DNA of 64,000 nt from an uncultured Verrucomicrobia subdivision 3 bacterium (GTDB taxonomy: Bacteria; Verrucomicrobiota; Verrucomicrobiia; Limisphaerales; UBA11358), in NCBI GenBank assembly GCA_903858275.1, contig CAIOIC010000063.1, forward strand, positions 18,363 to 82,362, in the 5' to 3' direction. The number at the start of each line of letters is the position of its first letter. Within the stretch, counting starts at the first letter, position 1. Made by a program: the position numbers and the translations under genes. Of this stretch, positions 16,489 to 58,122 are shown piece by piece. The notes below the pieces were generated by a model. That model worked only from the letters and a program-made list of their open reading frames with translations. It was not told the origin of the DNA and did not search any database.

Positions 16489-17271
16489 ATGCCAGCCAAT
16501 CGTTTATTCAAAAGGGTAAACCCAAGCCTTGCTTTCACTCTGATTGAGTTGCTGGTGGTGATCGCCATCATTGCGATTCTGGCGGCGATGCTCCTGCCGG
16601 CTTTGGCCAAGGCCAAAGAGAAGGCCATGGCCGCCTCCTGCCTCAGCAACATGAAACAAATGGGCGTGGCCATCCATTTGTATGCTGCGGACAATGACGA
16701 CCATGTGCCCGGTCCGATCGGGGGCTTGGGGAAGAATTCAGTGACATTGGCTTATTATCCTAACCCGGATGCTTATGCTGGCTACCGGATTACTGACACC
16801 AACCGGTTTGGATATTTCATAGGGAAATACGTCGGCCAGCCGGAACTGACGACCACAGCCCAGACCAACGTGGTCAAAAACCTGGTCTGCCCCGCCAACA
16901 AAATGAAGTGGGGGAGCGAGAAATATTCCGATTATTCCAGCATCAGCTACCAGTTTGAGCAGGGCGCATATAAGTTTGTGGGAAACACTAATACCATTTA
17001 TCCATTTGGAACCTACTACAACGCTGCCGCTAATTTCCCCAATCAAGCACCAATCAAATCAACATGGATTTCACAATTTACTGGCGGCTGGACCCCTGCA
17101 ACGTTGCGGGCCTTATACGACAACTATGACAACGATGTGCCGGAACCCCACGGCAAAACCAGTGCCGGCTGTCCGATCAGCGAGCTGAAATTTGACGGTC
17201 ACGTCAAAACCAGCTATGTTCTAAGGATTGGCGGCGTCAGCACGAATGTGATTGGCTATAAAGATCCTTAG
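16489..17271 (+). CDS. Prepilin-like protein, mosaic family member 1
   Basis: 260 residues. A short basic leader is followed by [19 protein letters not shown], the type IV prepilin/pseudopilin N-methylation signal; the residue before Phe is Ala rather than the usual Gly. The hydrophobic helix anchors the protein in the inner membrane or a pseudopilus. The C-terminal globular domain ends with [13 protein letters not shown], a common ending in this verrucomicrobial family. It is nearly identical to the genes at 18441 and 19313 at both ends, but differs in the middle (about residues 155-200). Function unknown; secretion pseudopilus subunits are one option. Confidence 0.85.
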
Positions 17272-17314
17272 TCGGCAGATGCGGTAAAATTATAATTTTT
17301 GATTCAAAAGAAAC

Positions 17315-18151
17315 ATGCTTATGAAAAATTGTCATATGAATAAATTCACCCGTCGTCATGCCTTCACCCTGATTGAATTGCTGGTGGTCATCGCCATCAT
17401 AGCGATTCTGGCGGCGATGCTCCTGCCGGCCCTGGCTGCCGCAAAAACGAAAGCGAGTAAAATTTCCTGCGTCAACAGCCTCAAGCAGACGGGCTTGGCT
17501 TTGCATATTTATTGCGGGGATCACGACGATCGATTGCCCACCTGCGGCATATATAAAATGGGCGATGGCAATGTGCCTTATAACGCCAATTATGTTTACC
17601 CCTCTTATAAACTTAACCACGAATCTACCAACTACCTGCAGTATTTTCTCGGATTTTCCATGAAAATGCCCGAACTCACCTCAACCTCACAAACCAATAC
17701 GATTAAAATGTTGGAATGTGCGGGCATGCGCAGCGCCATTGGGAATTATAACCCGTTCGGCACCCCCAGTTATTATGTGAATAACAGCAAGGGCAATTAC
17801 GATGTAATCACCGCGAATAATTCTTGGGGGTTAACTAATTCTGGAATTCCTTTTGGCGTCACGCCCAGTTCATCCGGTTATTCATCGGGTTACAGCCCCT
17901 GCAATTCCATGAAGTTAAGCCAGATCAAAAAGCCTTCTTTTGCTTGTGCGGTATATGATTATGCAAACTTTAATGCCACCGTTCAAAAACCAAAACTTCA
18001 TGGATTGACCTCTCAGGGTGAGCCGATGAATGATTTGAAGTTTGATGGCCATGTTAGAACCGACTATGTGACCAATCGCAGTGGTTCGGTCAATAGTTCC
18101 GGTCAAACTGTTTATTATGCTCCAACGCTGGTTGGTTTCTACGAGCCATAA
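17315..18151 (+). CDS. Prepilin-like protein, diverged member 2
   Basis: 278 residues from ATG 17315; an in-frame ATG at 17336 ([10 protein letters not shown]) gives a leader length closer to its paralogues and may be the true start. It has the same [19 protein letters not shown] signal. Beyond residue 50 it is clearly different from the other three: the middle and C-terminus are Asn/Ser/Tyr-rich, ending [13 protein letters not shown]. Its upstream spacer resembles the spacer before the gene at 19313, which places it in the same duplication history. Function unknown. Confidence 0.82.
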
Positions 18152-18440
18152 AGCTGAAGGGCTGTTACCGCGAACTGCTGACCCAACGCGGTTTCATTTT
18201 GTTATCTAGGCATATTTTTGACGCAATGGATTTTCGTGATGCAGGCCGTCTGGCTTCGTTGCTCTTCGGTGAAGACCCATGATGGTATCATCCCTCGTCG
18301 CGCCTTGCCGGCCAGCCTTCAGTACGATAACAACACTCCTCGGAATTTTCAGACAGGCTCTAAGGCGTGAGGTGAAACCACTAGACTTTTTTGGGAATAG
18401 AACTATATTACCACCCAACAAATCCAGATTTTTGTATTTA
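18152..18440. other. Intergenic segment with possible mobile-repeat remnant
   Basis: 289 bp between prepilin genes 2 and 3. About 18205-18370 is GC-rich, unlike the AT-rich spacers of the other prepilin genes, and on the minus strand it begins with GAGCCTGTCTGAAAATTCC, which looks like the end of an insertion-sequence-like or MITE-like element. There is no convincing protein. The last 60 bp are the duplicated upstream segment. The mobile origin is a suspicion only. Confidence 0.3.
18378..18407 (+). repeat. Upstream segment duplicated before prepilin genes, copy 2
   Basis: Second copy of the segment at 16424, with an exact 17-bp core and a diverged tail. It ends about 35 bp before the ATG of prepilin gene 3. 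Conservation of a non-coding stretch in both copies suggests promoter or leader function. Confidence 0.7.
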
Positions 18441-19265
18441 ATGAAAACTCATCCTTTTTTCAAAAAACACAATTTCCGCCATGCCTTCACCCTGATTGAG
18501 TTGCTGGTGGTGATCGCCATCATTGCGATTCTGGCGGCGATGCTCCTGCCGGCTTTGGCCAAGGCCAAAGAGAAGGCCATGGCCGCCTCCTGCCTCAGCA
18601 ACATGAAACAGATGGGCGTGGCCATCCATTTGTATGCCGGGGATAATGATGACCGCGTCCCCGGGCCAATCAGCTTCGCCAGTCAAAATACCACGACGAT
18701 GGCCTGGGGTATAAACCCGGACGCCTACGCTGGCTACCGAATGAATGACACCAACCGGTTTGGATATTTCTTGGGGAAATACGTCGGCCAGCCGGAACTG
18801 ACGACCACAACCCTGACCAACGTGGTCAAAAATTTGGTCTGCCCCGCCAACAAAATGAAGTGGGGGAGCGAGAAATATTCCGATTATTCCAGCGTCAGCT
18901 ATCAGTTTGAACAAGGGGGCTATCAGACTGGCAGCACCAGCTCTAACAATTATCCTTTTGGAACTTACGCCCACGCTGCCTCCGGTTTTCCTCTTCAGCC
19001 CCCGATTAGATTGGCATGGATTCCGCTGATGAGATTTTATGAGCAACTTAGCGGGCCTACGGGGCCTTGGACTCCAACTTACTGCAAGCCGTCAACGTTG
19101 AGGGCGTTATACGACAACTATGACAACGATGTGCTGGAACCCCACGGCAAGACCAGTGCCGGATGCCCGATCAGCGAGCTGAAATTCGACGGCCATGTCA
19201 AAACCAGCTATGTCTTAAGACGTGTGGGTATCAGCACAAATTATATTGGCAACAAAGATCCCTAG
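18441..19265 (+). CDS. Prepilin-like protein, mosaic family member 3
   Basis: 274 residues from ATG 18441. The track start at 18279 adds a non-conserved extension through the intergenic repeat and is rejected. The leader [13 protein letters not shown] is followed by the standard hydrophobic helix. DNA for residues about 12-60 is almost identical to genes 1 and 4, as is the C-terminal third ([19 protein letters not shown] onward). The middle (about residues 155-215) differs from gene 1 and is partly shared with gene 4 ([14 protein letters not shown]). Probably a surface or periplasmic pseudopilin-like protein; function unknown. Confidence 0.85.
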
Positions 19266-19312
19266 TCGGTACTGCGGTAAAACACTATTTTTCGGTTAAA
19301 ATACATGCGCTT

Positions 19313-20137
19313 ATGAATAAATATCATCTCTTTAAAAAATTTAGCTCCCGCCGTGCCTTCACCCTGATTGAGTTGCTGGTGGTCATCGCCATCATTGCGA
19401 TTCTGGCGGCGATGCTCCTGCCGGCTTTGGCCAAGGCCAAAGAGAAGGCCATGGCCGCCTCCTGCCTCAGCAACATGAAACAAATGGGCGTGGCCATTCA
19501 TATGTATGCCGGTGACAATGATGACCGGATTCCTGGTCCGGTCGGGTTCCCCAGTCAAAATACCACGACGATGGCGTGGGGCATGAACCCGGACATCTAC
19601 GCTGGCTACCGAATGAATGACACCAACCGGTTTGGGTATTACTTGGGGAAATACGTCGGCCAGCCGGAATTAACGACCACAACCCTGACCAACGTGGTCA
19701 AAAATTTGGTCTGCCCCGCCAACAAAATGAAGTGGGGGAGCGAGAAATATTCCGATTATTGGAGCGTCAGCTACCAGTTTGAAACTAGCAAAAACACCCT
19801 TGGGGACAGCACAAATTCAGTTTTTACTTTTGGATCTTACGCCCACGCTGCCTCTGGTTTTCCTCTTCAGCCCCCGATCAAATTGGCATGGATTTCGCAA
19901 TTGCAATTGTGGGAACAGCTTAGTGGCCCTACGGGGCCTTGGACTAAAAATTTCTGGAAGCCGTCAACGTTGAGGGCGTTATACGACAACTATGACAACG
20001 ATGTGCTGGAACCCCACGGCAAGACCAGTGCCGGATGCCCGGTCAGCGAGCTGAAATTCGACGGCCATGTCAAAACCAGCTACGTATTAAGACGTGTGGG
20101 CATCAGCACAAATTATATTGGCAACAAAGATCCCTAG
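19313..20137 (+). CDS. Prepilin-like protein, mosaic family member 4
   Basis: 274 residues from ATG 19313; the track start at 19163 runs back into the previous gene in another frame. Leader [14 protein letters not shown]. It is nearly identical to gene 3 except for a variable stretch after SVSYQFE and around the segment before STLRALYDN. The spacer before it resembles the spacer between genes 1 and 2 (shared GCGGTAAAA and CTTATGAA). It is followed by a strong terminator, so it closes the prepilin array. Confidence 0.85.
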
Positions 20138-50308: not shown

Positions 50309-50328
50309 GACTGAATGCCAATTCCACC

Positions 50329-50368: not shown

Positions 50369-50455
50369 TTTGGTGGGGCGCGCGTCCCCGCGAGCCGCGT
50401 ATTCAATGGTGGCCGTCTGCGAAGGCCGGCTCGTCAGGAGCCTCGCCCCACCAAA
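50369..50455. repeat. Palindromic intergenic repeat element
   Basis: The ends TTTGGTGGGGCG and CGCCCCACCAAA are inverted repeats, and the inner arms (CGCGAGCCG / CGGCTCGTC) also pair imperfectly. The left 26 bp match 24 of 26 positions within bioA at 57096. It is located between the ppnP terminator and mnmA. Confidence 0.75.
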
Positions 50456-56691: not shown

Positions 56692-58122
56692 ATGCACCCG
56701 CTGGCAAAGTTGGACCATCAATTCGTCTGGCACCCGTTCACGCAGATGCGCGACTGGCTGCGGGATGAGCCGATTGTCATCAGCGAAGGGCAGGGCGCGG
56801 TGCTGCGCGATGTGAAAGGGCGTGAATATCTCGATGCCAATTCCTCCATTTGGACTAATCTTCACGGCCACCAGCATCCCAAAATCAACGCCGCCGTCCG
56901 GGGGCAGTTGAATAAGATTTCCCACAGTTCCGCTCTTGGGTTTGCGAATGAACCCGCCAGCCTCCTGGCCGGGAAATTGGTCGGTGTCGCCAATTCAAAA
57001 TTGGCAAAAGTTTTTTACAGCGACGATGGCTCCACTGCGCTGGAAGTTGCCGTGAAGTTGGCTTATGAATTCACGCGGCGCACTCGCTGCAATACGGTGG
57101 GGCGAGCGTCCGCGCGAGCCGTATCCCCGCGCTTGCTTGCGCTCGACGGCGCGTATCACGGTGACACCATCGGCGCGGTTTCGCTTGGGCATATTGACTT
57201 GTTTCACAAGGCGTATGCTGGCCTGTTGTTCAAGACTGACAAGGTAATGTCGCCGTATTGCTACCGCTGTCCCTTCAACCGCGCCAAGCCGGAACGCGAT
57301 GACGCACGGAATTACCGCAAGTGCCGCTGGGAATGTGTCAGCCGGGTGGAACAGAAACTTTCTGCGCAAACGAAAAAGGGGAATCCCTATGCCGCGTTTG
57401 TTTTTGAGCCCTTGATGCAGGGTGCGGCGGGCATGATTCCGCAACCGGGCGGATGGTTGCGGCAAGTGACGGATATTGCCCGTAGTCATGGCGCGTTGCT
57501 CGTGGCGGATGAGGTGATGACCGGATTTGGTCGCACCAATTCAAAATTATCCGCTGCCGCTTCAAGATCGTCGCTGTTCGCCTGTCAGCAGGAATTGGTT
57601 CAGCCTGATTTTCTTTGCCTCGCCAAAGGTCTGACCGGCGGTTATCTGCCGATGGCGGCGACGCTGACGACGCAAAAGGTTTTCGATGCGTTCTTGGGCG
57701 GATACGAAGAATTAAAAACGTTTTTTCACGGCCATAGTTACACCGGCAACCAGCTGGGCGCTGCGGCGGCGCTGGCGAGCCTGGATATTTTGCAAAGTAA
57801 ATCGTCCGTTTCGCAGCGGGTGCGGTTGCAAAAGCAGATGCAGGATGAATTGCAAACGCTCTGGGTGCTCCCCCATATCGGCGATATCCGCCAGGTCGGG
57901 CTGGTGGCTGGCATCGAACTCGTTAAAAACTGGCGCACGCGGGAGCCGTTTGCCTTGCGCGAGCGGGCGGGCATCCGAGTGTGCGCGGCGATGTCCCGCC
58001 GCGGCGTGCTGACGCGTCCCGCGGGCAACGTCATCGTTCTGATGCCGCCTTATTGCACCACCAAAACGCAGATGCAAAAAATTGCATCTGCGTTGCGCGA
58101 GGCGGTTGCGGAAGTGTTCTAA
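56692..58122 (+). CDS. bioA: Adenosylmethionine-8-amino-7-oxononanoate aminotransferase (with in-frame repeat)
   Basis: 476 residues. It is a class III PLP aminotransferase with VWHPFTQMRDW, DGAYHGDTIGAVS, VADEVMTGFGRT and the PLP lysine in CLAKGLTGGYLP. It makes 7,8-diaminononanoate from SAM. Before the conserved AYHGDT an extra stretch (NTVGRASARAVSPR) is coded by DNA matching the intergenic repeat at 50369. A second extra stretch (NSKLSAAASRSS) follows GFGRT. The frame is kept. It follows bioF by 3 bp. Confidence 0.93.
   Translation: MHPLAKLDHQFVWHPFTQMRDWLRDEPIVISEGQGAVLRDVKGREYLDANSSIWTNLHGHQHPKINAAVRGQLNKISHSSALGFANEPASLLAGKLVGVANSKLAKVFYSDDGSTALEVAVKLAYEFTRRTRCNTVGRASARAVSPRLLALDGAYHGDTIGAVSLGHIDLFHKAYAGLLFKTDKVMSPYCYRCPFNRAKPERDDARNYRKCRWECVSRVEQKLSAQTKKGNPYAAFVFEPLMQGAAGMIPQPGGWLRQVTDIARSHGALLVADEVMTGFGRTNSKLSAAASRSSLFACQQELVQPDFLCLAKGLTGGYLPMAATLTTQKVFDAFLGGYEELKTFFHGHSYTGNQLGAAAALASLDILQSKSSVSQRVRLQKQMQDELQTLWVLPHIGDIRQVGLVAGIELVKNWRTREPFALRERAGIRVCAAMSRRGVLTRPAGNVIVLMPPYCTTKTQMQKIASALREAVAEVF
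57096..57121. repeat. Repeat-derived segment within bioA
   Basis: The 26 bp from GGTGGGGCG to GCGAGCCG match the left arm of the element at 50369 at 24 of 26 positions. Here they are read as codons for the extra residues before AYHGDT. Confidence 0.7.

Follow-up and report, generated by a model that had tools for sequence, protein, structure and literature searches.

A 2013 catalogue of REPs covers copies lying within genes, DNA-repair genes included, and gives Opitutus terrae as the species richest in the GTAG class; most O. terrae GTAG-20 copies carry a GTGG tag, some REP-bearing species are without RAYT genes, and the Rickettsia palindromic elements (RPE) are cited there as an older precedent (PMC3733652). 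GTGG tags are also carried by some REP families of Pseudomonas (PMC2817692). For Limisphaerales/Pedosphaera, no description of the GTGG-tagged family reported below was found in the open-access literature.

The window (the whole stretch of DNA that was analysed, 64,000 nt) holds one copy of this family in frame in bioA and a pair of copies between ppnP and mnmA:

56692..58122, + strand: bioA, adenosylmethionine--8-amino-7-oxononanoate transaminase, 476 aa (TIGR00508, PDB 3dod)
57096..57121, + strand: single REP-like arm, 26 nt, in frame in bioA, read ..(T)VGRASARAV.. (identical to the consensus pattern of the genome)
57091..57126, + strand: BioA insert, residues 134–145, NTVGRASARAVS (alignment of 110 Limisphaerales/subdivision 3 BioA)
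50372..50397, + strand: left arm of the intergenic head-to-head pair (ppnP/mnmA)
50427..50452, − strand: right arm of that pair, inverted and more diverged (79% complementary inverted repeat; pattern match)

The 26-mer of bioA (57096–57121) and the left arm of the pair (50372–50397) are identical at 24 of 26 positions (2 mismatches), as a first-pass annotation of this DNA had reported; no further copy was found in the 64,000-nt window at ≤3 mismatches, and 100 dinucleotide shuffles of the window gave 0 matches at the same threshold (0 expected by chance). The annotation had placed the intergenic element at 50369; the element is there, its unit beginning at 50372 and position 50369 belonging, as first base, to a flanking TTT. 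The ppnP stop is at 50309 and mnmA starts at about 50510, so the pair is intergenic, and the statement that two genes of the window carry an in-frame repeat had to be withdrawn: bioA is the only gene of the window with the GTGG-tagged 26-nt repeat in frame. Elsewhere in the window (16489–20137) four tandem genes encode related proteins whose N-termini bear a prepilin motif like that of type IV pilins; three of the four are 80–90% identical in DNA, and the G+C content is lower there (49% vs 57%).

A genome-wide search for the 26-mer, which the annotation had proposed, gave 44 matches to the consensus (≤2 mismatches) in the 3.66-Mb draft genome; the reversed pattern gave 0. The arm is dispersed about 50 times in this genome, most copies being intergenic (counts from the pattern search of the genome together with the extracted loci); after arms ≤100 nt apart had been merged, 36 sites were obtained, in a merging and classification of our own.

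Unit anatomy was derived from 52 arms of own-genome loci. The 26-nt unit, GGTGGGGCGAGCGTCCYCGCGAGCCG, is an imperfect hairpin with sharp boundaries; positions 1–26 are approximately 85–100% conserved except position 17 (T or C), the edges at positions 1 and 26 are abrupt, and the flanks are mixed in sequence save for a pyrimidine preference immediately upstream. The predicted fold is a GTGG tag followed by GGC-GA-GCG-TCCN-CGC-GA-GCC, in which the commonest variable site, position 17, would fall in the hairpin loop. The tag G2-T3-G4-G5 (canonical tag GTAG) is near-invariant (kept in 47–51 of 52 copies) and the hairpin pairs are retained in 46–51 arms; the only double change at a pair (13–18, GC to CG, 3 copies) preserves the hairpin. 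In an alternative hairpin the pair 10–17 would be broken in about half of the copies. Copies are single or arranged as head-to-head pairs with the tags outward (spacers 19–32 nt, overall length ca. 69–82 bp), singles being as common as pairs; pair spacers are unrelated in sequence and varied in length, and target duplication in 15 pairs was 0–2 nt, not above chance. The common unit has all six frames without stop codons. In its anatomy the arm is like REP elements, with GTGG as its tag. Downstream of single arms at four loci (L001, L004, L013, L029) a composite was seen, the arm being followed by TCATGGCTCGTGTGACGG.CACCTTCTCCCCCTCGGGGGAGAAGGCCGGGATGAGGGGG.

BioA is otherwise an intact enzyme (NCBIfam TIGR00508, 455 bits vs cut-off 405; PDB BioA 3dod, E 8e-116); its gene starts 4 bases after a bioF-like ORF and the neighbouring genes are intact. 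Alignment with 110 homologues from Limisphaerales/Verrucomicrobia subdivision 3, also proposed in the annotation, displayed a clear insert boundary: NTVGRASARAVS (12 residues) stands between TRRTRC and PRLLALDGAYHGDT, where 91 of the 110 homologues have 3–4 residues, a net gain of ca. 8 residues (24–27 nt). The extra residues had been described as lying just before AYHGDT; the insert is real (residues ca. 134–145) and is separated from that motif by eight conserved residues, PRLLALDG. It follows the helix after the GST.A.E motif of the PLP domain and precedes the strand leading to AYHGDT; in the predicted structure (mean pLDDT 70, moderately reliable) it falls between helix 116–135 and strand 147–151, a position consistent with a surface loop. 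Two further length-variable sites were noted in the BioA of this group: at residues ca. 101–103 (window 56992–57000) relatives have up to ca. 35 extra residues, two of them (L102 and L103) with the same VGRASARA arm near residue 102, and residues 281–293 (window 57532–57570; FGRT, NSKLSAAASRSS, LFAC) exceed the length in solved BioA by ca. 10 residues.

Thirteen of the 36 own-genome sites are in frame, in 12 conserved genes and in five of six frames: BioA, RibD (two places), MutS, a DinG/YoaA-type helicase, a LuxE-like synthetase, squalene/phytoene synthase, a TIGR00275 flavoprotein, ArgJ, TilS, TatD, a U32/TrhP peptidase and Ogt. The translations seen are VGRASxRA, GGASVxAS, WGExPxEP, GSRGRSPH and AREDARPT; since the same arm DNA is read in differing frames, the recurring thing is the DNA and not a peptide. 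In alignments of RibD and MutS with solved homologues, the inserts stand opposite gaps in the homologue. The genome family, the insert boundary in BioA and these 11 further genes uphold the earlier suggestion of a repeat family tolerant of coding insertion. Open frames running across the arm at L002, L008/L024, L019 and L196 were upstream or spurious ORFs without family support and were not counted as coding; a "second insert" of ArgJ (GTGARPAALPG) occurs throughout the genus and was therefore not taken for a recent insertion. MutS (L016) also contains an in-frame segment, SPPRSGGEGRGE, resembling the TCATGGCTCGTGTGACGG.CACCTTCTCCCCCTCGGGGGAGAAGGCCGGGATGAGGGGG repeat.

Among 36 genomes of the genus the arm count ranged from 0 to 132 per genome (reversed control: 0 in every one); beyond the genus the arm is seldom seen, one family (G045, 24 matches) being the exception. 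The relatives richest in the arm were G022 (132 arms), G035 and G003. Gaps in copy number between close species fit mobile repeats and, together with presence or absence at orthologous loops, speak indirectly for the word "active" that the annotation had applied to the family. As to a plasmid source, the 82-nt paired element had no match in 72,556 plasmid records.

The same arm occupies the BioA loop in four other homologues, single in L032, L034/L061 and L069 and paired in L102. The loop of L036 (L036 1501–3015) holds an unrelated complete palindrome, TTGGAGTTCAAGC..GCTAAAGCGTGGACTCCAA, its sister L076 having a short loop (branch support 99), and that of L059/L103 a third insert type, AGCGCGGGCAG..CTGCCCGC. 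The interdomain linker of RibD reads ..GIEVVHGIL.. in about a dozen relatives, is replaced by the GTGG-tagged arm in the own genome, in the closest relative (G016) and in several more, and is elsewhere of the SAGILPAS..RRQDAGAPGA type, the RRHVGALKSGD type or others; further families of palindromic or repeat-like sequence, RARHSVRAV..RRARSDAP among them, are read in frame in relatives at L238 and L239 and at L243/L245 (RibD linker). In three genomes (own, G016, G062) the ArgJ loop carries the GTGG-tagged arm; elsewhere two or more different types of insert were seen in it. The inserts in the BioA, RibD and ArgJ loops are thus unrelated from one relative to another, and some relatives have no insert there. 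We tentatively propose, as a possibility somewhat short of even, that in this genus a small set of exposed loops (helix–strand loop of BioA, RibD linker, ArgJ) is entered again and again by several unrelated families of palindromes, so that REP-like elements would be a standing source of in-frame protein segments at reusable hotspots; the near-constant length of the BioA insert would then reflect a target or length constraint.

The alternative to such recurrent insertion is that BioA gained the insert once, in an early ancestor of the group, and that vertical descent was followed by loss or decay in most lineages; we consider this rather unlikely. The BioA and ArgJ inserts are common to the window genome and G016, which a supported branch joins for BioA (SH-aLRT 97 and 96), so that the BioA insert is shared by descent; the measured segment is exactly 30 residues long in 16 of the 20 long BioA versions, VGRASSRA may have decayed into TRAKQKSARAAK and KQPASKSARGPQ, and a tree with all repeat-bearing BioA rows forced together was not rejected (AU p 0.22 without L102, 0.10 with L102). 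The tree tests favoured neither one entry of the arm into BioA nor several. However, unrelated inserts at one place are more than one shared ancient event can explain: the palindrome of L036 beside its short-looped sister, the element of L059/L103 and the paired form of L102 all sit in this loop, RibD and ArgJ repeat the multi-family pattern, and the arms of the window, G016 and L069 are still 0–2 bases from the present-day consensus. Many 12-residue versions of the BioA loop are without recognisable repeat sequence; an old BioA length variant may later have been overwritten by the repeat. An origin of the match in codon use, or in constraint on a peptide Gly-Arg-Ala-Ser-Ala-Arg-Ala, rather than in a repeat has a negligible probability in our estimate, common as Arg/Ala/Ser-rich loops are in this GC-rich protein family. 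The annotation had named common codon use, with BioA homologues lacking any insert boundary, as the outcome that would overturn its reading; instead the boundary is present, the 44 genomic matches (0 reversed) lie mostly outside the peptide context, and the 26 nt are read in five frames in different proteins. With the empty shuffles, the reversed control and the differing frames, a chance or codon-use origin was rejected.

The architecture of the pairs, with inverted 25–26-nt arms around a 19–32-nt spacer (69–82 bp overall), would suit a MITE: a DNA transposon shortened by deletion, with its terminal inverted repeats and a target-site duplication, that depends on a DDE transposase for its movement. 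This origin is improbable and was rejected: target-site duplications are absent from the 15 pairs, the spacers are unrelated and of varied length, single arms are as common as pairs, and the arm is itself an imperfect hairpin.

Very probably, then, the arm belongs to a REP-like family that is mobilised in trans and is tolerated in BioA as an in-frame loop insertion, near-neutral rather than useful; mobility, the transposase and near-neutrality are the parts of this reading that we infer. The 26-nt hairpin would have spread through the genome as singles and head-to-head pairs, presumably in single-stranded form and through an HUH transposase acting in trans (Y1, TnpA-REP/RAYT-type), for which GGTGGGGCGAGCGTCCTCGCGAGCCG is a candidate single-stranded substrate. 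Landing would be random, and the only copies to survive would be those that are intergenic or in frame in an exposed loop; since the common unit is stop-free in six frames, an in-frame copy in an exposed loop can survive, and where the net length is divisible by three the arm would persist as a short extra loop. In bioA, landing in the helix–strand loop would have added the ca. 8 residues. Of a Y1 transposase, the own genome yielded no more than a single fragment of 54 positions; relatives have many Y1 transposases, and at 50 of their Y1_Tnp loci (30 best and 20 further) no arm closely flanked the gene, the nearest lying ca. 0.6–1.2 kb away. The arm insertion is known here from comparison of relatives rather than from the empty site of a near-identical strain.

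These results show that short palindromes often insert in frame in free-living Verrucomicrobia, and that this is no peculiarity of Rickettsia or Opitutus. Loops that are orthologous but differ in having an insert (BioA, RibD, ArgJ) allow direct measurement of its cost or benefit, and in annotation and protein-family work peptides such as VGRASSRA, GSRGRSPH, AREDARPT and GGASVLAS are to be expected in ordinary enzymes.

Compared by description, O. terrae GTAG-20 is alike in being an imperfect hairpin of 20–40 nt with a 4-base unpaired end tag, in occurring in many copies as singles and head-to-head dimers, and in having copies in frame in DNA-repair and other housekeeping genes, some of which are hit twice; it differs in belonging to another order of Verrucomicrobia, the arm here being uniformly GTGG-tagged and no adjacent RAYT gene having been found here. 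Judged by the features of the GTAG superfamily, the arm is a dispersed 20–40-nt palindrome occurring as singles and inverted dimers; its GTGG tag is accepted for O. terrae GTAG-20 but departs from the canonical GTAG, and no RAYT gene flanked by the arm was found in the own genome or at the 50 Y1_Tnp loci of relatives. REPINs/BIMEs (RAYT, Pseudomonas/Escherichia) are likewise inverted pairs of tagged hairpins without target duplication, but they are almost wholly intergenic and usually have a dedicated RAYT, whereas only a transposase fragment was found here. RPE, likened by description, are palindromes in frame in conserved genes, in more than one frame, as added surface segments, and in-frame presence in an ORF with an insert boundary was found here in BioA, RibD, ArgJ and MutS; unlike the 26-nt GTGG hairpin, they come from an intracellular alphaproteobacterium and RPE-1 is longer. 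The phenomenon is known from a few bacteria, and loops holding several unrelated repeat families in different species are its notable part here.
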